Positions 1,801 to 32,038 of a DNA stretch of 32,961 nucleotides are shown here, in pieces. Position 1 is the first letter of the stretch. Each line of letters begins with the position of its first letter. The stretch comes from Candidatus Iainarchaeum sp. (GTDB taxonomy: Archaea; B1Sed10-29). Both the position numbers and the translations under genes were made by a program. The notes under the pieces are model-generated. The model saw only the letters and a list, made by a program, of their open reading frames with translations. It made no database searches and was not told the DNA's origin. Location of the stretch: NCBI GenBank assembly GCA_003558235.1, contig PWMI01000015.1, positions 1-32,961 on the forward strand, read 5' to 3'.

Positions 1801-1971
1801 ATGGATGATTGTGCACAGATTTCAGCTGAGTTGTTGATATTGATGGCTGCGGTGGTTGGTTTTGCTCTTTTGTTGATTCAGAGTTTGTCTTCTACTTCTG
1901 GTCAGGCTGCTGAGAAACTTAATGAGTCCACCAGTAAGCTTTTGGAGGAAATTGGGAATATAACGGGGTGA
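1801..1971 (+). CDS. Small class III signal peptide pilin-like protein (56 aa), not in the supplied ORF track
   Basis: ATG...TGA read by hand: MDDCAQISAELLILMAAVVGFALLLIQSLSSTSGQAAEKLNESTSKLLEEIGNITG. A|QISAE cleavage-like motif followed by a hydrophobic stretch. Confidence 0.65.
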   Translation: MDDCAQISAELLILMAAVVGFALLLIQSLSSTSGQAAEKLNESTSKLLEEIGNITG

Positions 1972-1975
1972 TTTT

Positions 1976-2152
1976 TTGGAGGATAGGGCGCAGATTTCAG
2001 CTGAGTTGATAATTGTTTTGGCTGCTTTGCTTGCTGTGGCTGTGATATTCATAGGTAGTTTGGATACTTTTTCCAGGAGGGCGAGGGATCGTCTTAGGAA
2101 GGAGATGGATAGGGCTCTTCAGAGTCAGATTGATATCGGTAAGTGGAGTTGA
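1976..2152 (+). CDS. Second small class III signal peptide pilin-like protein (58 aa, TTG start), not in the supplied ORF track
   Basis: Read by hand: (M)EDRAQISAELIIVLAALLAVAVIFIGSLDTFSRRARDRLRKEMDRALQSQIDIGKWS. Same A|QISAEL motif as the preceding ORF. The start codon (TTG at 1976) is tentative. Confidence 0.55.
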   Translation: MEDRAQISAELIIVLAALLAVAVIFIGSLDTFSRRARDRLRKEMDRALQSQIDIGKWS

Positions 2153-2173
2153 GTTTATTCAGGGGTTTTTTGG

Positions 2174-2539
2174 ATGATGCGTGGCCAGGTTTCTCTTGAG
2201 TATCTGCTGGTTTTCGGGGTCTCTGTTTCTATGTTTTTGTTTGTTCTGCCTGTTATTAGTAATGCTAGGGGTGCTTCGAGTGATGTTGCTAGGGTGGTTT
2301 ATCTTGAGCGTTTGGCTCAGGATCTTTCAGTTAATTGTGAGAGGTTGTCTCTTTTGGGTTCTTCTTGTTACTCTTTTTCTTTGAATTACCCTGTTTCCAT
2401 AGTGGTTGTGGGTGATAATTTGGTTGTTGGTTGCTCAAATTCTTCTTTGAATTTTTCTGTTGGTTGGAGCGAGTTTTGTGGTGTTGATGAGGGTTTTTTT
2501 AGTGTTGGGGATACTGTTTCTGTTTGTTTTGTTGGGTGA
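2174..2539 (+). CDS. Class III signal peptide prepilin-like protein
   Basis: MMRG|QVSLEYLLVFGVSVSMFLFVLPVI...; canonical Q-x-S-x-E and hydrophobic domain. Confidence 0.75.
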   Translation: MMRGQVSLEYLLVFGVSVSMFLFVLPVISNARGASSDVARVVYLERLAQDLSVNCERLSLLGSSCYSFSLNYPVSIVVVGDNLVVGCSNSSLNFSVGWSEFCGVDEGFFSVGDTVSVCFVG

Positions 2540-2858
2540 TGCTGCTTCTGAAGGTTATGTTTTTTTCTTGTCCTCTTATTCTCCTGGTGATCGCTATCTT
2601 TCCTTTTGGGTTGAGTTCTAGGTTGGGGTTTATTTTCTGTATTTTGCTGAAGCAGTTTTGCTTTGGAGTATTGTTTTTTATGCATGTTTCGACTATGTCT
2701 TGGGCTTGTTGCTGTAGGAGCTCGGTGTTTAGGTTTGTTGTCTCTGTGTTTGGTCGATTGGTTTCCACGGTGGTGATGAATGCTGTTAGTAGTATTAGGC
2801 AGATCGCTGCCTCTGTTCCTAGTGCGAATCCTTTCCTTGGTTTGTGATCTTTCTTCAT
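2499..2858 (-). CDS. Pilin-like or single-TM secreted hypothetical protein
   Basis: MKKDHKPRKGFALGTEAAICLILLTAFITTVETN...; hydrophobic N-terminal segment. Chained to the upstream gene by a 4-bp overlap, with 41 bp convergent overlap with 2174..2539. Confidence 0.6.
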   Translation of the reverse strand: MKKDHKPRKGFALGTEAAICLILLTAFITTVETNRPNTETTNLNTELLQQQAQDIVETCIKNNTPKQNCFSKIQKINPNLELNPKGKIAITRRIRGQEKNITFRSSITQQNKQKQYPQH

Positions 2859-3358
2859 TCGATTACACCTGCTTTGATTGTGTGGATTTTTCCTTCGAGT
2901 AGTGCTATTCTTTTTATTTTTCTTTCCGTTTGGTCTTTGGTTTTCTGAATCTTTTTCTCGAGTACTTTGTGGTTATCTATTGATTCTATTTTTAGGTGGC
3001 TTAGATCGTGTCCAACCCCTAGTTTTTGGTTTATTTGATCTAGGGTCATCTCTTCTAGCTGCATTACTTTTTCTGGGTCTAGGTGGTGGTTTTGCACGGT
3101 TTTTTGACTGTATTTTGCTAGTCCGATTCTTTCTATGTCTCTTTCTTTTTCGTGCCAATCCGTGGGGGCTCCTTGTGTTGTTATTAGTATTTCCGTGGCT
3201 TCGTATAGTGCCCTGTCTTTCTGGAGCTGGGTATGCGTGTTTTTTGAGTGGTTGATTAGTATCATTGAGTAGCTGAGGGTGGTGGTCATTGTGGCTATCA
3301 CCATTATGGTCGCGATGGTTGCGTCCATCGTGCCTATCTGTCCTTTTTGGAGTACCAT
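2855..3358 (-). CDS. Pilin-like protein with variant class III signal peptide
   Basis: Likely start is the internal Met (MVLQKG|QIGTMDATIATIMVIATMTTTLSYSMI...) rather than the longer ORF start at 3538, because the upstream portion lies inside the 3334..3699 gene and looks like out-of-frame translation. Confidence 0.65.
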   Translation of the reverse strand: MVLQKGQIGTMDATIATIMVIATMTTTLSYSMILINHSKNTHTQLQKDRALYEATEILITTQGAPTDWHEKERDIERIGLAKYSQKTVQNHHLDPEKVMQLEEMTLDQINQKLGVGHDLSHLKIESIDNHKVLEKKIQKTKDQTERKIKRIALLEGKIHTIKAGVIE

Positions 3359-3699
3359 GGTTTTAGGGATGCGCATACTAATCCTTCGTGGCTCGCTGTT
3401 GCTTCGGGGGCTATTGTTGTGGATTTGGCTTTTGCTTCGCCTTCTTCGAGTGTTAACCTGTTTTTTTCTATCTTGGTTGGGAGGGTGAGTGTTTCGTTGG
3501 TTTGGATAGATCTTCCGTGTATGTACATGTAGCTGCATCTTTGTGCTGTTTTGTCTATCTTTTCGTATGTTCTGATTCTTTCTAGGGTTGTTTTGAACTG
3601 TTGTCTTGTTTGGTTTTGTGATTGAAGTGCTGCGAGGATTAGTAGTGAGTATGCGGTTACTGCCAGTAGGAACTCGAGGGTGACCTGGGCTTTTTTCAT
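3334..3699 (-). CDS. Class III signal peptide prepilin-like protein
   Basis: MKKA|QVTLEFLLAVTAYSLLILAALQ... Confidence 0.7.
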   Translation of the reverse strand: MKKAQVTLEFLLAVTAYSLLILAALQSQNQTRQQFKTTLERIRTYEKIDKTAQRCSYMYIHGRSIQTNETLTLPTKIEKNRLTLEEGEAKAKSTTIAPEATASHEGLVCASLKPWYSKKDR

Positions 3700-4316
3700 T
3701 TGGTTCCCTCCCTGGTTTCTATTTTGGTGTTGCTCGGTATGATCACTAGTTGTGTTCTTTTTCCTGTTCTCTGTTTAAATATGAATGAGGGTTCTCCTAG
3801 TATTTCTTCGGGGTTTTCGGTGTAATCGATGTATCCATTGTTTCTTACTGTTGCTTTTTTTCCTTTTATTGAGAGGTAGTTGATGCAGAGGGTGGCTTCT
3901 GGCTTTTTTGCTCCTAGTGCTTTGGCTGGGTCTTTCTTTAGGTGTTCAGCGATGTTTAGGGTTGCTTTCCCCGTGTTTTCACTTTTTTGGTAGGTGACAG
4001 GATCTAGGTGCCCTGCTTTCAACGTTACCTTTGTGTTTTTGTTGTTGTGTTCTTGAAGCCAGTTCAGTAGTTCTTCGCATGCTAATTGTTCTCTCACTAT
4101 TGGGTCTTTGTTGGTTGTTTTTTTCATGGAGTTTTTGATTGTGTCTCTGAATCCTTGGTTTAGTCTGTACTTTGTTTCCTGTGTTTCTTGGTTGAGTTGC
4201 ACGTGATTTTTTATGAGTCTGTTGTGTCTGTTCAGGGTTTCTTGTATCTGTAGTGCGTAGTAGGTTGTGGATATCGCTGTTAATAGTATCGCTGTGGCTA
4301 GAAATCCTTTTTTCAT
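3696..4316 (-). CDS. Membrane-anchored hypothetical protein, probable pilus-associated subunit
   Basis: MKKGFLATAILLTAISTTYYALQ... N-terminal hydrophobic anchor, 206 aa; 4-bp overlap with the next pilin gene. Confidence 0.6.
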   Translation of the reverse strand: MKKGFLATAILLTAISTTYYALQIQETLNRHNRLIKNHVQLNQETQETKYRLNQGFRDTIKNSMKKTTNKDPIVREQLACEELLNWLQEHNNKNTKVTLKAGHLDPVTYQKSENTGKATLNIAEHLKKDPAKALGAKKPEATLCINYLSIKGKKATVRNNGYIDYTENPEEILGEPSFIFKQRTGKRTQLVIIPSNTKIETREGTK

Positions 4317-4419: not shown

Positions 4420-5031
4420 ATGCGTTTTGGTAGGACTGAGTTAATTCACTTGTTTATATCCATCGTGACCATAACTTTGGCTTTCTGGATTCTTTTTTCC
4501 AGGCGTGGGATTGGTCTTTTAGGGTCACTTGATGCTGGAACTGGTTTGATGGTTGTTTTTTTAGCTGTTGGGCTGGGTTTCTTTATTCACGAGGTTGGAC
4601 ATAAACTTGTGGCTGAGAAATTGGGTTGTAGAACCGTTTATAGGGCCTGGATGCCTGGTTTGTTGCTTGCTTTGGCTTTCGCGATGTTCACTCCATTTAT
4701 TTTTGCTGCTCCGGGGGCTGTTTATATACATAAGCGTTTTTTGAGTATTAGGGAGAATGGTTTGATTAGTTTGTCGGGTCCTTTGATGAACGTTATTCTT
4801 GGTGTTGCATTTCTTTTGATTTTTCTTAATGTTGGTTCGTTGAGTTTGCTTGGTTTCATTGCTTTGTTTGGTTTTCAGATTAATTTCTTCCTTGCTTTGT
4901 TTAATTTACTGCCTTTTCCTCCTTTGGATGGGAGTAAGGTGCTTAGTTGGAATCCCTTGGTGTGGGGGGTCATGTTCTTTTCGTTGGTTTACTTTAATTT
5001 CTTTTTCCCTGTCAGTATGTTTGGTTTTTAG
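4420..5031 (+). CDS. M50-family (site-2 protease-like) membrane metalloprotease
   Basis: Zinc motif HEVGHK (FFIHEVGHKLVAEKLG) and second motif NLLPFPPLDGSKVL; multiple TM segments. Confidence 0.85.
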   Translation: MRFGRTELIHLFISIVTITLAFWILFSRRGIGLLGSLDAGTGLMVVFLAVGLGFFIHEVGHKLVAEKLGCRTVYRAWMPGLLLALAFAMFTPFIFAAPGAVYIHKRFLSIRENGLISLSGPLMNVILGVAFLLIFLNVGSLSLLGFIALFGFQINFFLALFNLLPFPPLDGSKVLSWNPLVWGVMFFSLVYFNFFFPVSMFGF

Positions 5032-5063: not shown

Positions 5064-7223
5064 TTAGACGTAGCTTACGCTTTGGGATCCTTCTTCGAAT
5101 TTTTGGTACTCTTCTCCGCTGACGTCTTTTAGGCTTGGTTTGACTTGTTTTAATGCTTCTTCGAAGTTTTCTTTGGTCACTTGTTCTACTTCCTTGTTTT
5201 TTCTTAATGCGTTCATCGCTGCTTCTCTTACTAATGCTTCTAGGTCTGCTCCTGAGTAGTCTTGTGTTTTTGTAGCGATTTCATCGATGTTTACTTCTTT
5301 TGATAGGGGTGTTTTTCGTGTGTGTACTTCTAGTATCTTTTTTCTTGTTTGTTTGCTTGGTTTTTGTGTTTTTACTAGTCTGTCGAATCGCCCTGGTCTT
5401 AGTAGTGCTGGGTCGACCATGTCTGGTCTGTTCGTTGCTCCTATCACTATGACTTCTTTGAGTTCTTCGAGTCCATCCATCTCTGTTAGTAGTTGGTTTA
5501 CTATTGACTCGGTTACGTGTGATCCTGTTGTTCTTCCTCTTTGTGGTGCTAGTGAGTCCACTTCATCGAAGAATATCACGCAGGGTGCTGATTGTCTTGC
5601 TTTTCTGAATATTTCCCTCATTCCTTTTTCGCTTTCTCCTACCCATTTGGATAGTAGTTCGGGTCCGTTTACTAGTATGAAGTTTGATTCGCTTTCTCTT
5701 GCTACTGCTTTTGCTAGTAGTGTTTTTCCTGTTCCGGGGGGTCCGTATATGAAGATTCCTTTTGGTGGCTTTATGCCTAGTTTGTCGAACTGTTTTGCGT
5801 ACTTGAGTGGCCATTCTACTGCTTCTTTTATGTTTTCTTTGACTTCTTCTAGGCCTCCTATGTCTTCCCATCTTACGTTTGGTTTTTCCACGAATACTTC
5901 TCTCATCGCGGAGGGTTGTACTTCTTTGTATGCTTCTTCAAAGTCTTCTTTGGTTACTTTTAGGTCTTTTAGTATCTCCATGGGTAGTTTTTCTTCTTCC
6001 ATGTCTATCTTGGGGGATATTCTTCGGAGGGTCTTCATGGCTGCTTCTCTTGCGAGTGCTTCTAGGTCTGCTCCAACGTATCCGTGGGTTCTGTTTGCTA
6101 GTTTACCTATGTCTACTTTTTCTCCTAGGGGCATTCCTGTTATGTGTATTTGAAGTATTTCTTTTCTTTCATCTTCGCTTGGTATCCCTAGTTCTACTTC
6201 TCTGTCGAATCTGCCTGCTCTTCTTAGCGCGGGGTCTATTGAGTTGACTCTGTTTGTTGCTCCTATAACTATTACGTCTCCACGTGATTCCATTCCGTCC
6301 ATGAGTGATAGTAGTTGCGCTACTATTCTTTTTTCTACTTCTCCCACTACTTCATCTCTTTTTGGGGCTATCGCGTCTATTTCATCTATGAATATTATTG
6401 CTGGAGCGTTTTTCTTCGCGTCTTTGAATATCTGTCTTAGTTTTCCTTCTGCTTCTCCAACGAACTTTGAAACTATCTCTGGTCCTTGTATGGTTGTGAA
6501 GTATGCGTCTGATTCGTTTGCTACTGCTTTTGCTAGTAGTGTTTTTCCTGTTCCGGGGGGCCCGTAGAGTAGTACTCCTTTTGGTGGATCTATCCCTATC
6601 TTTTTGAATAGTTCAGGGTGTTTTAGGGGTAACTCGACCATTTCCCTTACTTTTCTTATCTGTTCTTTCATTCCTCCTATGTCTTCGTAGGTTACTGATG
6701 GTCTTTCTTCAAGTTCTTCTATCGTTTCTTTTAGTATCTTGACTTCGGTGTCTGCTGTGACTTTGGTTATGCCTTTTGGTTTTACTTCTACTGCTTGGAA
6801 GGGTAGTGGTTGAGCGAGGTACGTTATGTATACTTTGTCTTGTTCTGATATTGGTTTTCCGACTAGGTTTTTTCTTATGAAGTCTTTCCAGTTTCCTCCG
6901 AATCGTATGTCTTTGGTTCTCTTGGTTCTGGCTAGTGCGAAGCTTTTTGTTGGTTTTATATCATCGAGTTTTTCTACTCTGACTTTGTCTCCTACTCCTG
7001 CCCCTGCGTTCTGTCTTATTATCCCGTCCATTCTCACTACTTTTCTGTCTTCGTCTTGTGGGTAGCTTTGCCATACTTTTGCTCCTGTTTCTCTTTCTCC
7101 GACTACTTTTACTATGTCTCCGCTGGATACGCCGAGTTCTCTCCTTGTGGCTGTGTCCATGCGGATTATTCCTTTTCCCAGGTCGGATCCGTATCCTTCT
7201 GCTACTTTTAGTTCTGCTGGCAT
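5064..7223 (-). CDS. cdc48: CDC48/VAT AAA+ ATPase (two AAA domains)
   Basis: N-terminal double-psi-barrel-like region, then two Walker A ([15 protein letters not shown]) and Walker B ([16 protein letters not shown]) sets; 719 aa. Confidence 0.95.
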
Positions 7224-8977: not shown

Positions 8978-10675
8978 ATGGAGCCTCTTAACTTCCAGAA
9001 GGATCCTCTGTTACTTGGAGAAGATAGCTATAAGACAATGGTAACTGCAAACCAACTTCTAAAGGAAAAATTTCCCCTTCTTCTGGAAGGGAAAAAATTG
9101 AACCTCTACTCATCCTTGGTGAAATCATTTGACTTTGAAAAAACTCTGGGATCTCATTGTTTCTGCAGCATATCTCCTGATAAAATTAAGGAATATCTCC
9201 CATCATCTTACAACTCTAAAAACTTCAGAAAACTCAGAGAGGATATGAAGTGTTACTCAGAAAAAGAAATATTATCAAGATCAGTTAGGACTTGGACTAA
9301 AAATGAAATATGGCCTTTGTTTATTCTACGGGTTATCAGTAGACTCTATGACGAAGATAAAGAAATTTTAAGTGATCTCCTAAAATCTGTAAATTACTTC
9401 ACTGACTCTACCCATAAAAATAAATTTATCCCACCCAAAACCCTCTCAAAGCTTTTAACAAAAGAGCAAGCATACTTCATTGGATGTGCTTTTGGGGATG
9501 GAGGTTTCAGCACTAATGAATATTGGGTTATAGTAGACGGAGGTAAAAAAGAAGAACTAATTTACTCACAACAATGGTTAGGAGAGCTCTCCTCCTTAAT
9601 TAATAGAATGTATAATATTGAATTCACAGATAATAACCCTCGGCAGAGAGAGAATAAAGTAGAGCTCTGGGTAAGTAATACTTGGTTTGAACGTTTTGTA
9701 AATTTTTGGTTCTCCCTCCCTTATGGTAAAAAGAAGAATAAAATAGAGAAACCAAAAATTTTTAAATTGTCCAAAAATCCTGAAAAACTCTATAAACACT
9801 TCTGGAGAGGTATGTTCGATGCTGATGGGCACTGTAGCAATGAGTCAATGAAAGCGTCTTTATCTTCTGCTACTTCAAAAGTATTAAATCAATGTCAAGC
9901 AGATTTTAAAAAACTCGATATAACTTCTAAAATCAGTAAACCACGAAATTTAAGGATTTATAGCAAATCTTTTGCTCAATTTGGAAGGAAAATTGGTTTT
10001 TCCCATCCAAGGAAAAGAAGAATCCTCTTGAAACAACTAGCAAAAGGGCCTAAAGAAACTCAATTCAAAGGAATTAACCCAGAAAAGCTTATAGACAACA
10101 AATTCTTTGATTTAAATTATATTAAAAATTTAAGAGTTTATGGCATTAAGGAAGATATTAGAGAAATACGCAAGGAACTTGGTTTAACTCAACAAGAGCT
10201 TTCTAATAAACTTAAATTGGGTTCTTCCCAAACTTTTTACTGGGAAAAGGGATGTGGGATACAGTTCGAACCGCTTATAAATCTTTATGGTCTTTTAGGA
10301 GTTAAAAAGAAGGAATTACTAAAACTTCTCTCGCAGAAAAACATATCTTGGGGCCTAAGCGGACGAGGTCTTACTTCAAATTTAGTTAACTTACCCATAA
10401 AAGTAACTGATAACGTGATTAATCTAGCATACCATCTGCGCCCTTATGATTGTGAAGTTAGACTCCGGAAAACCGGACATTCAAAGGATACTATGAAAAA
10501 AATAGAAAACACTTTTGGAATTGAGGTAAAGGAACTAAGAGAGGAGGTATATTATTTAAGTAGCCAGGTGCTGATAAAATTTCTTAAAAACTTCTTTAGT
10601 TACGGTCCCTACTGGAAACCATTCGATAAAGACGAATTAAATAAACTTGACAAAAAACTTAAAGTCAACTTTTAA
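8978..10675 (+). CDS. Free-standing LAGLIDADG homing endonuclease with an embedded HTH domain
   Basis: Two LAGLIDADG-type helices (KEQAYFIGCAFGDGGFS and KHFWRGMFDADGHCS) about 100 aa apart, and an XRE-like HTH (IREIRKELGLTQQELSNKLKLGSSQTFYWEKG). A-rich composition unlike its neighbours. Confidence 0.85.
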   Translation: MEPLNFQKDPLLLGEDSYKTMVTANQLLKEKFPLLLEGKKLNLYSSLVKSFDFEKTLGSHCFCSISPDKIKEYLPSSYNSKNFRKLREDMKCYSEKEILSRSVRTWTKNEIWPLFILRVISRLYDEDKEILSDLLKSVNYFTDSTHKNKFIPPKTLSKLLTKEQAYFIGCAFGDGGFSTNEYWVIVDGGKKEELIYSQQWLGELSSLINRMYNIEFTDNNPRQRENKVELWVSNTWFERFVNFWFSLPYGKKKNKIEKPKIFKLSKNPEKLYKHFWRGMFDADGHCSNESMKASLSSATSKVLNQCQADFKKLDITSKISKPRNLRIYSKSFAQFGRKIGFSHPRKRRILLKQLAKGPKETQFKGINPEKLIDNKFFDLNYIKNLRVYGIKEDIREIRKELGLTQQELSNKLKLGSSQTFYWEKGCGIQFEPLINLYGLLGVKKKELLKLLSQKNISWGLSGRGLTSNLVNLPIKVTDNVINLAYHLRPYDCEVRLRKTGHSKDTMKKIENTFGIEVKELREEVYYLSSQVLIKFLKNFFSYGPYWKPFDKDELNKLDKKLKVNF

Positions 10676-23220: not shown

Positions 23221-23631
23221 TTAGTAGTCAATTGTTTTGGTGAACTGTGTTTTTCTTTCTACTGTGTCTGTGTTGATTGTGTACTCTACTTCTATGGTTA
23301 TGGTGCTTGGGCAGTTGTTGTTTACTGTTAGTGTATGGCCGAAGGTGATCGGTCCTTGCTCCATGAGGTTGTTGTTTAGCGCGGAATTGATGTAGCTCTC
23401 TATTTTACTTGCTGCGTCGTTACAATCTTCTCCTTGGTTTATTCCATCTTCTATTGCTTTTTCTATTATCACGTGTGTTTCTTGTTGCCGGTTTATGACT
23501 GTGTCTATCTCCATTTTTTGTTTTATGGCTTCTTCTTGCGCTAAGTCTCCTATCACCACGTAGTTGGCTGATGCTATTAGTATGAGCGCCATTATGAACA
23601 TTAATCCCGTTAGTATTAATCCTTTTTTCAT
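23221..23631 (-). CDS. Pilus-associated membrane-anchored protein
   Basis: Likely start at internal Met: MKKGLILTGLMFIMALILIASANYV...; 4-bp overlap with the upstream gene. Confidence 0.65.
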   Translation of the reverse strand: MKKGLILTGLMFIMALILIASANYVVIGDLAQEEAIKQKMEIDTVINRQQETHVIIEKAIEDGINQGEDCNDAASKIESYINSALNNNLMEQGPITFGHTLTVNNNCPSTITIEVEYTINTDTVERKTQFTKTIDY

Positions 23632-23933
23632 GGTAAGCACACCTTTGTTGTTTTTAGTTCCAAGTTTCCGTTGTCTGTGTATACTACCGCTTGATTTGTT
23701 CCCACCGTGTCTGCATTTCCGCAGTCGTTCACTGTGATCCAATTGAGGTTTACTGTTTCTCCCGTTGCTTCTTCGACTATGTTTATGTCCGCTGCTAGTC
23801 TTGAGAGGTAGAGTATGTCTTCGTTGCTCTGTTGAGTTGTTTGTAGTACCATCATCACTGTTGCTGTGGCAAGTAGGATTATGAATACTGCGTAGGCTGC
23901 GTCCATCGTGAATACGAATGCTTTTTGATTCAT
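23628..23933 (-). CDS. Prepilin-like protein with variant signal peptide
   Basis: MNQKA|FVFTMDAAYAVFIILLATATVMM...; 4-bp ATGA-type overlaps on both sides. Confidence 0.65.
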   Translation of the reverse strand: MNQKAFVFTMDAAYAVFIILLATATVMMVLQTTQQSNEDILYLSRLAADINIVEEATGETVNLNWITVNDCGNADTVGTNQAVVYTDNGNLELKTTKVCLP

Positions 23934-24355
23934 CTGCAGATCACCACCGTTAGGGTGTCTATGTTTCCGTTTGAGTTCTTCACTATCCTCCTTGAGTTTA
24001 CTGCTCTTTCGGCTGTTCCGCATGTCCCTGGATTTATCTCTATTGTTCCCTGTACTTCGTAATGGTAGTGTGCAGGTATGAATTGGTCCATGAAGGTATT
24101 TAGTTCATCTACTTTGTTTTCGTCTATGGTGTTTGCTCTGCCTTCTTCTGCGAGGATGTTTTTGATGGCTATTTGGGCTGCGTCTCCCGCTATTGTTCTC
24201 ATTTCACGGTTAGCTTGGAGTGACTGGGTGTTTTTTATCTCTGTTTGGTAGTGTAGAGTGACTCCCATTATCAGGGTTACTGCTATGAGTGCTGCTAGTA
24301 CGTCCAGCGTGAATATCTGTCCTTTTCTTCCTTTCATTTCTTTATCCTCTGACAC
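23930..24355 (-). CDS. Class III signal peptide prepilin-like protein
   Basis: ...MKGRKG|QIFTLDVLAALIAVTLIMGVTLHY; start at 24355 (MSEDKE...) or 24337. Confidence 0.7.
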   Translation of the reverse strand: MSEDKEMKGRKGQIFTLDVLAALIAVTLIMGVTLHYQTEIKNTQSLQANREMRTIAGDAAQIAIKNILAEEGRANTIDENKVDELNTFMDQFIPAHYHYEVQGTIEINPGTCGTAERAVNSRRIVKNSNGNIDTLTVVICR

Positions 24356-24755
24356 AGGGTTCTCCTCCTACTTCATTGCAACTTGAGTCATATTCTATTC
24401 CGGTTGGAACTGGGTATGTATATGTTGCTTGTTTTCCTTCGCCGTAGTCTACCGTGATCGTGAGTTCTTCGTCATTTGTTCCTTTTGTTACTGTGGTCGT
24501 TGGTTGTGTTAGGAAGTCCTTGATCCCTGGGTCTATGATTGCGCTGTAGTCCCCGTTTTCTGGGTTTGATGCGTAGAAGTTGTTCATGATTGTTCCTATT
24601 GCCGTGGTCTTTCTTTGTAGTTCTTGGTTTATGCCTGTTTCTTGTGTTTGGTCTGTTTGTAGTAGTAGATATCCTTGTATGGTCGTGAATATGAAGATTG
24701 AGATCAGGATGGCTACGAATAGGTCGAGTGTTATTTGTCCTTTTTGTGCTTTCAT
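24342..24755 (-). CDS. Class III signal peptide prepilin-like protein
   Basis: Likely start at internal Met: MKAQKG|QITLDLFVAILISIFIFTTIQGYLL...; overlaps the upstream gene by 4 bp. Confidence 0.7.
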   Translation of the reverse strand: MKAQKGQITLDLFVAILISIFIFTTIQGYLLLQTDQTQETGINQELQRKTTAIGTIMNNFYASNPENGDYSAIIDPGIKDFLTQPTTTVTKGTNDEELTITVDYGEGKQATYTYPVPTGIEYDSSCNEVGGEPCVRG

Positions 24756-25348
24756 TTTTTCCCTCCTTTGACTATTCTTTCTATCTCTGTTGGTTGAAGC
24801 GGTTTGAAGAGGGATGTTGATACTTTTACTTTTACTCTGTCTCCTTTTTTTGCTTTTACTGTGTTTTTCACGGCGTACTTCTTTGGTTTTACGCCTGATA
24901 GGAAGTCGTACTCTGGTCTTATTATTGCGTCTTCCCCGTCTGCTACTAGTACTTCTGCTTTGACTCCTTTTTTTGATATGAATGTCCTTATGGAGAGTGA
25001 GGTTGCTACGAGTAGGATTAGTGCTCCCATTACTATCTGTGTTCCCATTGGGGACATCTTCATGGTTACTCTTGTGAGTACTGCGGGGGAAGCTACTGCT
25101 AGTGCGTATATCGTGCCGAGTATCCCTGTGTACTTGGCTGTTTTTTCGGGGTAGTTTTTGTTTACTTGGTGTAGTGAGTGTACCATGACGGCTGCGGTGC
25201 CTATGTTGAGTAGTATTATCCATGGTTGAATGATTGTGGCGAATAGTGTTATTACTAGTGCTAGTAGTATGGATATCTCCATCTTGGTTACTATGTAGGG
25301 TTCTATTGATCCGTATTCTTCTTGGTACTGTTTTAATATGTTCTTCAC
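24752..25348 (-). CDS. Multi-TM membrane protein with soluble C-terminal domain, in the pilus locus
   Basis: 198 aa; several TM segments, then a beta-rich C-terminus (VKAKKGDRVKVKVS). Confidence 0.65.
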   Translation of the reverse strand: MKNILKQYQEEYGSIEPYIVTKMEISILLALVITLFATIIQPWIILLNIGTAAVMVHSLHQVNKNYPEKTAKYTGILGTIYALAVASPAVLTRVTMKMSPMGTQIVMGALILLVATSLSIRTFISKKGVKAEVLVADGEDAIIRPEYDFLSGVKPKKYAVKNTVKAKKGDRVKVKVSTSLFKPLQPTEIERIVKGGKK

Positions 25349-25710
25349 TGTATTATCACCTCATAGGTTTCTCCTATGCATGTTATGTATCGGTTTCCGC
25401 TTGGTGTTTGTCCGCATATTTCTTTTTCTATTGTGTCTGCTACTTCTGTTGCTGTTGGGTGGCATGCTTCTGGTTCTATTTTAATCATTATCTGCCCGTT
25501 TTGAACGTTGTACTCGGTTATGATGGGGTCTATGCACCCGGGTTCTTGTATTTCCCTGGTTGTTAATAGATTTGAAACCGTTGACCTGGTTGCAGATTGA
25601 ACCGCTGTTTCTCTTGATTCGTTGAATGCTGCGGAGAGTACTGATGCTGTGACTAGTAGTACTAATCCTAGGATGATGAGGAACTCGAAGGAAGCTAGGC
25701 CTTTTTTCAT
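25345..25710 (-). CDS. Class III signal peptide prepilin-like protein
   Basis: MKKG|LASFEFLIILGLVLLVTASVLSAAF... Confidence 0.7.
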   Translation of the reverse strand: MKKGLASFEFLIILGLVLLVTASVLSAAFNESRETAVQSATRSTVSNLLTTREIQEPGCIDPIITEYNVQNGQIMIKIEPEACHPTATEVADTIEKEICGQTPSGNRYITCIGETYEVIIQ

Positions 25711-25714
25711 TTTT

Positions 25715-26116
25715 TCACCTTTCAACCGTTACTTTGCCTGTTTTGCTCGCGGGTATGTTTTCTCCGGAGTAGGTTACTCCTGTTCCTGGCGCTATGTTTC
25801 CTATTGTTGTGCCTGTGTATTCTTGGCTCGGTGTTCCGGCGATACATTGGAGTGTTATGCTTGAGTCTGATACTAGGTATTCGCAGTCGGGTGGTGTGTT
25901 CAGTGTTATGGTTTGTTTTGCTCCTTCTGCTTGTAGGGCAACGATGTTCACCGTGTTATGTAGTGTCGTGTTGTGTATATTTATCGCTTGTTCTGTTTGT
26001 ATTTGTAGTGTGTTGGTGCTAGCGAAGTCCATTAGGTCTGTTGAGATGCTTGTGAAGAGCATTATCAGTATTACCAGTATTAGTAGGTACTCTATTGTTA
26101 GTTGTCCTTTTTTCAT
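25715..26116 (-). CDS. Class III signal peptide prepilin-like protein
   Basis: MKKG|QLTIEYLLILVILIMLFTSIS... Confidence 0.75.
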   Translation of the reverse strand: MKKGQLTIEYLLILVILIMLFTSISTDLMDFASTNTLQIQTEQAINIHNTTLHNTVNIVALQAEGAKQTITLNTPPDCEYLVSDSSITLQCIAGTPSQEYTGTTIGNIAPGTGVTYSGENIPASKTGKVTVER

Positions 26117-26283
26117 CGTGTGATCATCTCCTTTAGCCTGTTTCGGTATAGTTCACCTGTTTCTTTTACTGCTCCGGACATGGTGAAGTAGTTTCCCGCA
26201 ACTGTCATCACTACTGCTCCTAGTATGACTATCAGTGCTATTAGTACTAGGTACTCGAAGCTTACCTGGGCTTTATTGTTCAT
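26113..26283 (-). CDS. Small class III prepilin (56 aa), not in the supplied ORF track
   Basis: Read by hand: MNNKA|QVSFEYLVLIALIVILGAVVMTVAGNYFTMSGAVKETGELYRNRLKEMITR*; ATGA overlap with 25715..26116. Confidence 0.75.
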   Translation of the reverse strand: MNNKAQVSFEYLVLIALIVILGAVVMTVAGNYFTMSGAVKETGELYRNRLKEMITR

Positions 26284-26297
26284 TTTAACCTCTTAAT

Positions 26298-26465
26298 TTA
26301 GTTTATTTGTATTAATTTCTCTCGGTACATCCTTAGAGTGTCTCTGAGGATGCTTTCCATGTTTAGGACCCTGGTAGTGAGTACTATTGCTAGTGTTGCT
26401 ATTATAACCACTATTCCAACCATTATCAGGTACTCTAAACTTGTTTGGGACTTGTTCTCCATCAT
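26298..26465 (-). CDS. Small class III prepilin (55 aa), not in the supplied ORF track
   Basis: Read by hand: MMENKS|QTSLEYLIMVGIVVIIATLAIVLTTRVLNMESILRDTLRMYREKLIQIN*. Confidence 0.75.
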   Translation of the reverse strand: MMENKSQTSLEYLIMVGIVVIIATLAIVLTTRVLNMESILRDTLRMYREKLIQIN

Positions 26466-26484: not shown

Positions 26485-27483
26485 TTATATAAATGTTTCG
26501 AGGACTATGAGTATAACTAACCCTAGGGTAACTACTGGGATGAAAGGTAGGCTTTTCTTGGTTTTTAGCGTGGTTATTCCTTTGTTCTTTATCCACTCTA
26601 TTTCTTTTTCTGTCAGACCCCTTGCTTTTCTTGAGTTTATGATCAGTTTTCCTTTTTCCTTGGTGGTTACTATCTTTGGTTCTCTTTTTTCTGGTTTTCC
26701 TTGGACCAGCCATATGTCTTCCGCTGGTATGTCTCCTTCTTCCAGGTTTTCTGCTTTTTTTTCTTTTCTCAGAACGTTATTTTTTATGGATCTATATGTT
26801 TGTGTTCCGGTTACTAGTAGGATTGATATTCCTATGAAGTAGCCGAAGGTGATTAAGTTGCTTATGGGTTCTCTTAGTGCTGCTAGTGTGAATAGGAATG
26901 CTGTTACTGGGTAGCCGTACTTCTTGGTTAGGTATATTGCTGGGGCTATTGCTAGTGTGGCTGCGGGGTGTATTCCTAGGATCTTTGTTAGCGTAAGTGC
27001 TGCTGTTAGGGTTAGTGCTGAGTACAGTGACTTTGGTAGGGATTTCTTTATGTCTTCCATGAGTTGTTTTCCATCTTGTTTTACTGCGTGGTAGGTGCCG
27101 TATATCAGGATGAATGGGAGTACTGAGATTGTTGATGCTGCCAGTATCAGTACCGGGAATGGTATTGGGAAGGTTATTTGGCTTATTGTTCCGTAGTAGG
27201 GGAGTAGTGCTCCTAGTGCTGTGAATAGTTTTACGTCTCCTCCAGCCCATCCTCCCATTAGGTAGATTGCGTATGAGATTGAGAACATTGCTAGTGCTAC
27301 TGATGAGGAGTATAGTATTGGGTTTGGGTTGCTTGTTACTGCTGATTGTACTAGGTGTAGTGTTAGTCCAAGGATTAGCATTCCGTGAGTGAAGAATGGT
27401 GGCGCGGTTCTTTCTTTTATGTCTGTGTGGCTTAGTATTGCTAGGAATATGATTGCTAGGGAGATGTAAAGGTAGTTCCACAT
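26485..27483 (-). CDS. A24-family prepilin peptidase
   Basis: SHTDIKER and GGWAGGDVKLFTALGALLP motifs (the catalytic Asp pair of type IV prepilin peptidases); multi-TM. Confidence 0.85.
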   Translation of the reverse strand: MWNYLYISLAIIFLAILSHTDIKERTAPPFFTHGMLILGLTLHLVQSAVTSNPNPILYSSSVALAMFSISYAIYLMGGWAGGDVKLFTALGALLPYYGTISQITFPIPFPVLILAASTISVLPFILIYGTYHAVKQDGKQLMEDIKKSLPKSLYSALTLTAALTLTKILGIHPAATLAIAPAIYLTKKYGYPVTAFLFTLAALREPISNLITFGYFIGISILLVTGTQTYRSIKNNVLRKEKKAENLEEGDIPAEDIWLVQGKPEKREPKIVTTKEKGKLIINSRKARGLTEKEIEWIKNKGITTLKTKKSLPFIPVVTLGLVILIVLETFI

Positions 27484-28335: not shown

Positions 28336-29265
28336 TCATAGTAGTAGTGCTGCTACGGTTGTTCCTACTCCCGTCGTTGTTCCTCCTAGTACAACTAGGA
28401 ACTGTGATGCCACTATAACGTAGATCACGTATGTTATGAGTACGAGTATCGGTATGTATATTACTGCTTTTGACATGCTTCCTTCTCTTACTTGTACTGC
28501 TGCTAGGGTTGTTAATGCTGATTCCATTATTAGATATACTTTGAATATTAGGTCGAATCTGGCTATTAATCCGTTTCCGGTTCCTGCTCCTCCTACACTT
28601 ACGAGTATGGTTAGAACTGATTTTACTACTCCGAATACGAATGGCGCGACGAAGCATCCTGCTACAACTATGAATAGGAATTGTAGTAGGGTTTTTGTTC
28701 TTCTTTCTGCCCTAAGTCTTTCTAATGCTCTTATATCTTCGCTCATTGCTGTTAAGGTATCTACTAATCCTCCTCCGCTTTTTCTAGCTGTTATTATTAT
28801 CATCGCTGTTTTTTCGAGTAGTTCGCTTCTTGAGGCTATGGCGAACTCTTTGAATGCTCTTTCGAATGTGGATCCTTCGCGTATGTCGCTGAGCATTCTC
28901 TTTATTCCTTTGGTTATTGGACCGTAGTCTACTCTGCTGGCTTCTTCGAGTGCCACCTCAACGGTTCCCCCTGTTTTTAGGGTGGTTGACATGTGGTGAA
29001 GCATATCTGGTAGAGCTGTTTCTATCTTTCTTACTTTTCTTCTTGCGAGGAAGAAAGGCATTCCAATTCCTATATCGATTATGACTAGCGGTATTAGTAT
29101 TGCTAGGGTTATGTCTACGAGTGCTCCTAGGAAGAATCCTATTATAGATGCTGCTAGTGTTATCACGAGGAGTTTTTTCGCTCCTATGCTCATCTCCGCG
29201 AATCTGACTGTTTCTTCATAGCTTTTTATTTTTTCTGAAATGTTCAGTTTCTTTTTTTTGCTCAT
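28336..29265 (-). CDS. Type II/IV secretion GspF/TadC-like membrane protein 2
   Basis: T2SF-like: PDMLHHMSTTLKTGGTVEVALEEAS...GGGLVDTLTAMSEDIRALERLRAERR. Confidence 0.85.
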   Translation of the reverse strand: MSKKKKLNISEKIKSYEETVRFAEMSIGAKKLLVITLAASIIGFFLGALVDITLAILIPLVIIDIGIGMPFFLARRKVRKIETALPDMLHHMSTTLKTGGTVEVALEEASRVDYGPITKGIKRMLSDIREGSTFERAFKEFAIASRSELLEKTAMIIITARKSGGGLVDTLTAMSEDIRALERLRAERRTKTLLQFLFIVVAGCFVAPFVFGVVKSVLTILVSVGGAGTGNGLIARFDLIFKVYLIMESALTTLAAVQVREGSMSKAVIYIPILVLITYVIYVIVASQFLVVLGGTTTGVGTTVAALLL

Positions 29266-29277
29266 TTTTTTCCTCCG

Positions 29278-30405
29278 CTAGAGTGATCCGGGGTCACTCG
29301 CTTTTAGGTAGTATATGAAGATCATTAGTAGTCCTGGTACTATGGCGAAGAACACCATGGTTAGGAACATCGGTGAGAAGATTGAGAAGGCTCCTAGGTA
29401 CTGTTGGAGTTGTGGGGTGCTTCCGATGGTTGTTAGTATTGAGATCATTACTGGTAGTACTATCGCTGACATCATCAGGAAGAGTCCCATTAGGTTGAGT
29501 TTTTCCGCGAAGTCGGCTATCTTTTGTCTTCTTTGGAATGAAACATCTTCAGCTATCTTCACCATCACGTCTGAGAGGCTTCCTCCTGTTCTGAGTGCTC
29601 TTACTATGTGTGATACTACTCTTCTTACTGATTGGCTTCTTGTTCTTTCGGACCATGCTTCTAGGGCTGCTTCGGTTGAGACTCCTTTTTCTATGTTTGC
29701 GAGTATCCATCTGAATCCTTCGCTGAGTTCTCCGTAGTCGGATGCTGCTATCGACTGCATTGTTTCGTATATTCCTACTCCTGCTTTTATCTGTATGGAC
29801 ATGTGTCTTAGTGCGAAGGGGAGTTGTCTTTCTACTTCGTTACCTATCTTTTTTGCTTTGCTGTTGGGCATGATGAATGCTATTCCTGGAACAATGAGGG
29901 CCGTTATTATTGTTAGGATTAGTGAGAAGGTGACTGGCATTATTCCTAGGAAACTAAGTAGGAGTGTTAGTCCAAAAACTACTGCTGTAGCGATTATTGT
30001 TCCGACCAGCATTAGCGCTATGTACTGTTCTATGGAGTAGTTCATTCTTGCGCTCACAAGATCTCTCTCTAGTTTTTGTCCTACTTTGTCCTGGATTAAG
30101 TGCTCTATTTTTCGTAGGGGTTTCTCTATTATCAGGTATATCTTTCCGAAGAACTTTACGAATGCGTTGTCGAATGTTTCCAGTTGTTTGGCGGATGATT
30201 GACCTATTCTGTAGTTTCTTTCGCCTCTCATTAGTTTTCTTAGTTCTGTTGTTCTTTCCGGTGAGTCTTCTTCTGTTAGGATGCCTTCTTCTCTGTATTT
30301 GTCGCTCATTCTTTCTATTATTTTGTCTAGTACTTCTTCTTCTACTTCACTTTCTTCTTCTTTTTTTTCCTTGAGGAGTTTGCTTAGTTTTTTCTCTTTA
30401 GCCAT
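29278..30405 (-). CDS. Type II/IV secretion GspF/TadC-like membrane protein 1
   Basis: T2SF-like: ERQLPFALRHMSIQIKAGVGIYETMQSIA...ALRTGGSLSDVMVKIAEDVSFQRRQKIADFAEKLN. Confidence 0.85.
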   Translation of the reverse strand: MAKEKKLSKLLKEKKEEESEVEEEVLDKIIERMSDKYREEGILTEEDSPERTTELRKLMRGERNYRIGQSSAKQLETFDNAFVKFFGKIYLIIEKPLRKIEHLIQDKVGQKLERDLVSARMNYSIEQYIALMLVGTIIATAVVFGLTLLLSFLGIMPVTFSLILTIITALIVPGIAFIMPNSKAKKIGNEVERQLPFALRHMSIQIKAGVGIYETMQSIAASDYGELSEGFRWILANIEKGVSTEAALEAWSERTRSQSVRRVVSHIVRALRTGGSLSDVMVKIAEDVSFQRRQKIADFAEKLNLMGLFLMMSAIVLPVMISILTTIGSTPQLQQYLGAFSIFSPMFLTMVFFAIVPGLLMIFIYYLKASDPGSL

Positions 30406-32038
30406 CTTTGTTCACCATGTGTTGACCCATTATTCTCTTGACTTCATCTAAGTTGGTTATGTTTCTTTTAACTAGGTTTTCAAGAACTTCTTTTCTCTCT
30501 TGTAGTTCTTTTTCTAGGTCTTCTTTCGTAATGTTCGTGTACCTTAATATCTTTTGTTCATATATAGATGGTGTTCTTTCTCTTTTTAACTTGTCTTCAG
30601 CGGGATCGTATGTGTATAGTATGTTTATTTTGGCTGAGCCGTCTTCAGCTATTTCTTGGACTTCGGCGATGGAGGTTATTCTTCTGGTTAGCCCGGTTTT
30701 TTTCTTGTGTATTCTTTTCTGTATTATTATGAAGTCTAGTGCGTTGGCCATCACTACGGGGACGTTCATGGGTGGGCTTGTGACCCTTGTTATTGTTTCT
30801 TTCGCAGAGTTCGCGTGTATCGTTCCCATGCATCCGTTGTGGCCTGTGTTCATGCCTTGAAATAGGTTGTATGCTTCTTCTCCCCTTACTTCCCCTACCA
30901 GTATTCTGTCTGGCCTCATTCTAAGTGAGTTTTCGACTAGTGCCCCCATGGATATCTTTCCTTTTCCTTCCATTCCCGGTGGCCTAGTTTCCATTCTTAT
31001 CATGTGTTCTATGGGTAGGTTTAGTTCTGCTGTTTGTTCTATAGTGATTATTCTTTCCCTGATTGGTATGAAACTGCTTAGAACGTTTAGAGTGGTTGTT
31101 TTTCCCGATGCTGTTCCTCCTGAGACCAGCGTGTTGGCGGGCCTTACACCCATTCCTTCTGCCATTAGCCAGAAGAATGCTCCTACTTCTGGTGTTAGGG
31201 TTTTCCATTTTATCAGGTCTGTTATGGTTATTGGGTCTTCTCTGAACTTCCTTATTGTTAGGGTGTGTCCATCTAGTGATATTGGTTGGATTGTGGCGTT
31301 TACTCTTGATCCGTCCGGTAGGCGTGCGTCAAGTAGTGGATTTTTCCTATCGATTCTTCTTCCGACTTGTCTGGCTATTCTTTCTATTATTTCCCTTATT
31401 TCTTCGTTGTTTCCAAACTGGACGTTGCTCTTCATCATGCCGTATTCTTGGTGGAACACGAATACTGGTTTGTTTGGTCCTACTACCATTACTTCTTCCA
31501 GCATCTTGTCTCTGACTAGTGCGTCTATTACTCCGTAGCCTATCATCTCCCTTGTTACCATTTCTGAGTAGAATTCTATTTTGGTCTCGGGGAGCCCTAT
31601 CTCGGGGTTTGATTCTATTATCTCCTTTATTTTGTTGAAGTAGAACTTTCTTCGTCTCTCCATCGATCTGAACTGCTCGGGTGAGACCATTATGAGTCGG
31701 GTGGCGGCTTCTTTTATGGTGTTTACGATTCTTTTTTCCGGTCCGCTGGGTTTTGTTACTGGTACTGAGTAGAATAAGAGGGGTTCTTCTTTTACTTTGT
31801 ATATGACTGTGTTTCCGTACTTGGTTACTACTTCTTTTTCTCCTTCTATCTTTACTTCTCTTGCTTCTTGTTTCTTGATTTCGTCAGCTTCTTCCTGAGC
31901 TTTTTGTGATTGTTTTTCCTTGATTTCTTCTTTAGTTAGTTCTTGGTCTTTCTTTTCTTCTTCGGCTTTTTCTTCTTCTTTCTTCTGTTCTTCTACTTCT
32001 TGCTTTGATTCGCGTATTGCCTCGTCAAGATAACCCAT
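30398..32038 (-). CDS. TadA/VirB11-like secretion ATPase
   Basis: VSGGTASGKTTTLNVLSSFIP (Walker A), RMRPDRILVGEVRGEEAYNLFQGMNTGHNGCMGTIHANS. Confidence 0.95.
   Translation of the reverse strand: MGYLDEAIRESKQEVEEQKKEEEKAEEEKKDQELTKEEIKEKQSQKAQEEADEIKKQEAREVKIEGEKEVVTKYGNTVIYKVKEEPLLFYSVPVTKPSGPEKRIVNTIKEAATRLIMVSPEQFRSMERRRKFYFNKIKEIIESNPEIGLPETKIEFYSEMVTREMIGYGVIDALVRDKMLEEVMVVGPNKPVFVFHQEYGMMKSNVQFGNNEEIREIIERIARQVGRRIDRKNPLLDARLPDGSRVNATIQPISLDGHTLTIRKFREDPITITDLIKWKTLTPEVGAFFWLMAEGMGVRPANTLVSGGTASGKTTTLNVLSSFIPIRERIITIEQTAELNLPIEHMIRMETRPPGMEGKGKISMGALVENSLRMRPDRILVGEVRGEEAYNLFQGMNTGHNGCMGTIHANSAKETITRVTSPPMNVPVVMANALDFIIIQKRIHKKKTGLTRRITSIAEVQEIAEDGSAKINILYTYDPAEDKLKRERTPSIYEQKILRYTNITKEDLEKELQERKEVLENLVKRNITNLDEVKRIMGQHMVNKDG

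Follow-up and report, generated by a model that had tools for sequence, protein, structure and literature searches.

At positions 1801–4316 of a 32,961-nucleotide stretch of archaeal DNA (the window, which is contig C41 of an 829-kb assembly that is 82% complete), seven short pilin-like proteins are encoded without a motor of their own. No ATPase, TadC-like platform protein or A24 prepilin peptidase is found between 1 and 23 kb of the window, as the initial annotation had noted for this cassette, and the nearest such set in the window is part of locus A, at 26.5–32.0 kb. The cassette is thus not a complete type IV pilus/Tad locus, which would contain its own ATPase, platform protein and peptidase. 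The reading favored here, with a probability of roughly one half (0.52), is that the cassette encodes, apart from the machinery, a second set of pilins for a type IV (Tad-like archaeal) pilus that is assembled by locus A.

The seven open reading frames (ORFs) had been annotated as three on the plus strand and four chained on the minus strand. All of them are present, and the two groups converge tail to tail (a slash precedes residue +1):

1801–1971, + strand: p1, class III pilin of 56 residues, MDDCA/QISAELL (sequence and same-position homologues in relatives)
1976–2152, + strand: p2, class III pilin of 58 residues with a TTG start, EDRA/QISAELI (sequence and profile A2)
2174–2539, + strand: p3, class III pilin of 121 residues, MMRG/QVSLEYL (supported also by an hhalign match to the 25715–26116 pilin)
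2499–2858, − strand: m4, pilin-like protein of 119 residues, RKG/FALGTEA, acidic residue at +6
2855–3358, − strand: m3, pilin-like protein of 167 residues, MVLQKG/QIGTMDA, acidic residue at +6
3334–3699, − strand: m2, class III pilin-like protein of 121 residues, MKKA/QVTLEF
3696–4316, − strand: m1, pilin-like anchor of 206 residues, MKKG/FLATAIL, lacking the acidic +5 residue

The minus-strand genes form a tightly packed quartet, in which the start of each ORF overlaps the stop of the preceding ORF by 4 bp (m1/m2 and m3/m4) or 25 bp (m2/m3). The tails of p3 and m4 overlap by 41 bp. The p1, p2, p3 and m2 proteins display all of the class III features, namely, a short leader ending in G or A, Gln at +1, an acidic residue at +5 and a hydrophobic helix. 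The remaining three proteins depart from this pattern: in m3 and m4 the acidic residue is at +6, with Gln at +1 in the former and Phe in the latter, and m1 has no acidic residue. The +1 Gln is present in five of the seven proteins. When ORFs were counted strictly, by a Q-x-[ST]-x-[ED] motif near the start codon followed by a hydrophobic stretch, four were observed in the 2.5 kb, compared with a mean of 0.004 and a maximum of 1 in 500 dinucleotide shuffles. The presence of the seven ORFs is confirmed, and they are not a product of chance.

Pfam and NCBIfam searches of the cassette proteins yielded nothing beyond sub-threshold matches to the class III signal model (PF04021; best score of 20.4 bits against a cut-off of 23.7), and profile searches of the PDB gave no significant match, the best one for p3 being PilA (6xxd, E 0.45). 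Because the signal model remains below its cut-off, the pilin assignment rests on the motif, synteny and conservation. AlphaFold places a helix at residues 3–61 of p3 and 2–67 of m1, with confidence for approximately the first 60 and the first 50–60 residues, respectively, and the heads are poorly modeled from shallow alignments. The predicted long N-terminal helices of p3 and m1 are as expected for pilins. Since the heads are poorly resolved, the shaft and tip roles considered below rest on size, gene order and precedent. By size and the QISAEL motif, p1 and p2 (56–58 residues) look like archaeal shaft pilins, and p1 is probably of the shaft type; for comparison, the major pilin of Methanococcus maripaludis has 74 residues and its minor pilins EpdA–C have 130–156 residues (PMC3875500). 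The initial description of the cassette products as tip or minor subunits is too narrow given these two shaft-like proteins.

The cassette is followed by two conserved neighbors, identified by Pfam and synteny:

4420–5031, + strand: M50 (site-2 type) protease (PF02163)
5064–7223, − strand: CDC48

The M50 gene was used as an anchor for locating the cassette region, and 20 relatives were read around it. Most of these relatives share a block in which an overlapping quartet is faced by a QxSLE pilin and by one or two short pilins of the QISxE type, with M50-CDC48 on one side and DUF7121/coiled-coil genes on the other. M50 lies beside the cassette in nearly all relatives, and the block is inverted relative to M50 in several. 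The convergent cassette beside M50-CDC48 recurs in the class of the window, in AR10/Diapherotrites and in Micrarchaeota records, is present on the complete chromosome of GW2011_AR10, and has homologues in the same arrangement across dozens of genomes. At E ≤ 0.001, the short-pilin profile A2, which represents p2, has matches in 70 of the 73 genomes from AR10's phylum. Twenty further regions, which were picked after the profiles had been built, contain nine blocks complete for p2, p3 and m1–m4 and several partial ones. Among 28 loci, p3 and m4 overlap tail to tail in 24. Because of its synteny in relatives, the cassette was judged not to derive from a contaminant. With the sole exception of G131, no ATPase, TadC or A24 peptidase adjoins the cassette in the relatives examined. 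Rearranged forms also occur: p3 and m1 lie on the strand opposite the other pilins in G007 (L044), and M50 is inserted between the two halves of the cassette in G148 (L216). The records L099 and L113, titled Chloroflexota and Thaumarchaeota, carry a Diapherotrites-type M50-CDC48-cassette block, and these titles are probably wrong.

Locus A (23.2–32.0 kb) is conserved in relatives and comprises ThrS, the ATPase, two TadC proteins, QGALE pilins, the A24 peptidase, two short pilins, two medium pilins, DUF2101 and a quartet arranged as q2-q3-q4-q1. Its components relevant to the cassette are as follows:

30398–32038, − strand: secretion ATPase (TadA/PilB-like), the proposed motor (PF00437, linkage)
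29278–30405, − strand: platform protein 1, TadC-like (PF00482)
28336–29265, − strand: platform protein 2, TadC-like (PF00482)
26485–27483, − strand: A24 prepilin peptidase, the proposed processor of the cassette pilins (PF01478)
25345–26465, − strand: region with the counterparts of p1–p3, QTSLE (26298–26465), QVSFE (26113–26280) and QLTIE (25715–26116)
25345–25713, − strand: additional pilin, LASFE
23221–24758, − strand: quartet, q2 (24342–24758), q3 (23930–24340), q4 (23628–23936) and q1 (23221–23631)

Locus A stays close to the cassette in other genomes. In 27 assemblies with a single contig carrying both the cassette and the ATPase of locus A (G111 left out), the median distance between them is 22 kb, and 24 distances are below 50 kb, with outliers at 50.5, 62.7 and 145 kb. 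In G111, the distance on an 840-kb contig is ∼95 kb if the contig is circular. The initial annotation would have been contradicted by a dedicated ATPase locus linked to the cassette in relatives. Such a locus was sought, and the only linked ATPase-platform locus found is locus A. One type of lone ATPase without TadC is also often located within 30–60 kb of the cassette, and part of the linkage is therefore attributable to general neighborhood conservation. G131 provides a direct junction (L211), in which the m1–m4 quartet begins ∼55 bp after the locus-A DUF2101 gene on the same strand, so that one lineage has a physical junction between the cassette and the head of locus A. The locus-A tail, TctA-q2-q3-q4-q1, is found ∼30 kb away beside M50-CDC48 (L256); the neighbors of the cassette and locus A are thus exchanged reciprocally in this genome.

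The kinship of the two loci was analyzed by hhalign comparison of family alignments of each cassette and locus-A pilin. The p3 family matches that of the locus-A 25715 pilin with a probability of 98% (E 1.6e-14, 123 columns), and the match persists after removal of the helix (95%, E 2.9e-8). The match of p3 to this pilin scores 85, compared with at most 49 for the other machine-linked pilins compared. Within the quartets, m3 matches q3 (the 23930 ORF) at 98% (E 1.2e-13, 127 columns), and m4 matches q4 (the 23628 ORF) at 96% and q3 at 95%. The match of m2 to q2 (the 24342 ORF) reaches 93% and lies mostly in the membrane helix. No significant match to the locus-A families, q1 included, was obtained for m1. 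The orders m1-m2-m3-m4 and q2-q3-q4-q1 are collinear apart from one subunit. When full-length scores were summed over the 24 possible quartet pairings, the collinear pairing was highest (203); with after-helix scores, one other pairing lies slightly above it (63 versus 61). The acidic residue is at +6, not +5, in most members of the m3/q3 and m4/q4 families, and a C-terminal Cys...R-[IL]-[VL]...Cys pattern is common to most m3 and q3 family members but is lost from the m3 of the window. By these profile comparisons, the cassette and locus-A quartets appear partly paralogous, in two or three of four subunits. The resemblance between the minus-strand set and the 23.2–24.8-kb quartet, as initially proposed, accordingly holds for m3 and m4, extends to m2 mainly through its helix and fails for m1 and q1.

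Kinship with the cassette quartet extends beyond locus A. The m3 family matches family b2 of another pilus locus, locus B, at 97% over 147 columns, with a score of 77 against 81 for q3, and this near-equality weakens any use of the quartet to single out locus A. The m3–b2 match points to a module common to several pilus loci of these archaea. A further locus with an ATPase and two TadC genes in AR10 (L192, 920–939 kb) contains a quartet in the order QITVE, QVFSTD, FIVSLD and GFVISIS, and its motifs likewise suggest that the quartet is a general module.

A genome-wide search for secretion ATPases, which the initial annotation had proposed as a check, identified seven PF00437 proteins in the genome of the window (G000). 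In addition to the locus-A ATPase, these are distributed as follows:

Contig C56: locus B, an ATPase and TadC with pilin-like proteins
Contig C62: locus C, an ATPase and two small TadC-like proteins
Contig C3: locus D, an ATPase and TadC with six pilin-like proteins
Contigs C64 and C87: lone ATPases
Contig C74: the seventh PF00437 protein, on a contig whose content looks foreign

The last contig (L051; 4.7 kb), in which a PilT-like ATPase is accompanied by long, GC-rich reading frames, is a probable contaminant. Given these further motors, the motor missing from the cassette need not be that of locus A. No pilin genes adjoin locus C in the genome of the window or in the relatives examined. The locus-C ATPase (L053:7429–9120) contains an N-terminal ferredoxin-like 4Fe-4S domain (Pfam Fer4). 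Among 27 type C ATPases, 17 have a Cys-rich Fer4-type motif within their first 140 residues, several of the others being truncated or lacking the N-terminus; the motif is absent from all A, B, D and lone (C64-type) ATPases examined. A literature search found no paper on a fusion of a ferredoxin-like domain with a secretion ATPase. Exactly two A24 peptidases occur in 16 of 18 genomes checked (G098 has four and G120 has three), and one of them lies in or beside locus A wherever its position was read. The genome of the window has two, one in locus A and the other on contig C49. With no A24 gene in the cassette, its pilins depend on a peptidase encoded elsewhere, barring assembly gaps.

Conserved linkage, the G131 junction and the location of one of the two A24 peptidases in locus A make the 26–32-kb machinery the best-supported partner of the cassette. 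In the proposed mechanism, the cassette precursors would be cut in trans by an A24 peptidase; the Methanococcus peptidase EppA requires a +1 Gln (PMC4371748). The processed subunits would then be assembled in trans by the ATPase and two TadC proteins of locus A, which also bears the paralogous pilin set. The p1 and p2 proteins, possibly together with p3, would build or lengthen a shaft, and m1–m4 would constitute an initiating or tip complex, by analogy with the minor-pilin quartets that prime and tip bacterial pili (PMC7541494). Lacking the acidic +5 residue, m1 may be the odd member of the set, of the kind seen in other minor-pilin quartets. Through such processing and assembly in trans, the cell could equip a single machine with alternative filaments or tips. 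Precedent is provided by Makarova et al., who argue that the ATPase/TadC pairs of archaea can function with differing sets of pilins (PMC4858521). Assembly by locus A is supported by the maintained cassette layout, the p3, m3 and m4 paralogues, the linkage, the G131 adjacency and the two-peptidase pattern, whereas the m3–b2 match, the nearby lone ATPase, the widespread, pilin-less locus C, the restriction of AlphaFold confidence to the N-terminal helices of p3 and m1 and the 82% completeness of the genome count against it. A full pilin set is, moreover, already present in locus A, which has no need of the cassette, and the linkage could be inherited synteny without function. The supply of subunits to the 26–32-kb machinery envisaged in the initial annotation therefore gains from linkage and adjacency and loses from a kinship that extends beyond locus A.

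Locus C offers a rather unlikely alternative, in which a motor without adjacent pilins assembles pilins without an adjacent motor. Such a pairing would resemble that in Saccharibacteria, where a pilin-poor machine uses an orphan pilin locus (PMC12206443). At a strict cut-off, locus C is found in 21 of the 25 near-complete genomes from AR10's phylum, and additional copies score slightly under that limit. Phyletic patterns failed to discriminate between loci A and C, since both are widespread and several apparent absences of locus C are copies just below the cut-off. Genomic distance argues against the pairing: locus C is ∼480 kb from the cassette in AR10 (locus D is also ∼460–480 kb away) and ∼380 kb in G113, where locus A is at ∼11 and ∼19 kb, respectively, and locus C is on a separate contig in G058, G131 and G078, as opposed to 7–35 kb for locus A. 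Moreover, locus C adjoins locus B, which has its own pilin-like proteins, in most relatives of the class. It is improbable that the cassette encodes the filament of locus C, that is, a pilus split over two far-apart loci and driven by a possibly redox-gated motor.

It is unlikely that the cassette pilins have no fixed partner and fit several machines (A, B and others), with the linkage to locus A being inherited synteny. The near-equal m3 scores for q3 and b2 favor this promiscuity, as does the proposal by Makarova et al.; the six PilA pilins of Haloferax volcanii are encoded away from pilB/pilC (PMC3875500), and such compatibility has been proposed for archaeal PilA. However, the strong match of p3 outside the cassette is the locus-A pilin, and the only genome that joins the cassette to a machine, G131, joins it to locus A. 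It is very improbable that no filament is made and that the products are class-III-anchored envelope proteins or a secretion pseudopilus, perhaps turned over by the M50 protease. The nearly constant M50 neighbor and the lack of any pilin-domain match beyond the N-terminus, or any structural match, are compatible with this idea, but two short and one medium class III pilins plus a quartet, with counterparts in a locus that has an ATPase, TadC and a peptidase, are arranged as in a pilus system.

Assembly by locus A would have parallels in several known systems. The Epd pilins of M. maripaludis similarly have +1 Gln and +5 Glu and include minor pilins of 130–156 residues and very small ones of 67–76 residues, with the ATPase and platform genes located away from the epd operon (PMC3875500). 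Unlike the cassette, the epd operon includes a gene for a peptidase, EppA, but not those for the small pilins; the cassette unites pilins of both sizes in one convergent, peptidase-less block, and a second full set is found at the machine. In the T4P-2 system of the saccharibacterium TM7x, the machinery is likewise separate from the pilins, with the former in locus 2 and five pilins in locus 3 (PMC12206443). TM7x was shown to make one pilus from these loci; its pilus is a bacterial T4aP with other machinery and with one pilin in the machinery locus, while locus A has a full set. Myxococcus xanthus carries paralogous minor-pilin sets away from a shared machine, as minor-pilin clusters 1–3 (PMC7541494) and Kil Tips 1–4 (PMC12075869), and these sets give exchangeable tips (PMC7541494; PMC12075869). 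As in a tip cassette of the Myxococcus type, the quartet is paralogous to that of the putative shared machine, for two or three of four subunits. The M. xanthus clusters differ in that they encode minor pilins, in one case with PilY1 and in the other with variable tip domains, whereas the cassette lacks a large adhesin and includes shaft-like pilins as well. The location of H. volcanii PilA1–6 away from pilB/pilC is comparable (PMC3875500), but these are six related pilins and not a set with a divergent quartet.

Pilins encoded apart from their machinery (M. maripaludis, H. volcanii and TM7x) and tip sets for a shared machine (M. xanthus) are thus already known, and the mechanism itself is a variant of known ones; the new part is the deep conservation of a motorless pilin block. 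In the openly searchable literature, no description was found of the convergent cassette, or of a Tad-like locus in these archaea to which a second full set of pilins is linked. Pilus subunits evolve rapidly and are usually annotated as hypothetical, so the pairing of pilins with machines is often obscure in small archaea with a presumed life on partner cells. A motorless set that is syntenic and has a paralogous counterpart beside a linked machine provides a test case for whether one archaeal motor serves more than one filament or tip, and the convergent block beside M50-CDC48 is a practical anchor for locating pilin genes that are difficult to detect.

The M50 gene has similar company elsewhere. 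In the records L082, L089 and L116 (labeled Methanobacteriaceae, Euryarchaeota and Methanobrevibacter), the M50 homologue lies ∼3–6 kb from a TadC-like gene and a short pilin of the QxSAE type, and from this gene content the protease is possibly associated with pilin genes more widely. In the window itself, a free-standing LAGLIDADG protein with a helix-turn-helix domain is encoded at 8978–10675 (+ strand), between the 8035–8841 gene and a topoisomerase.
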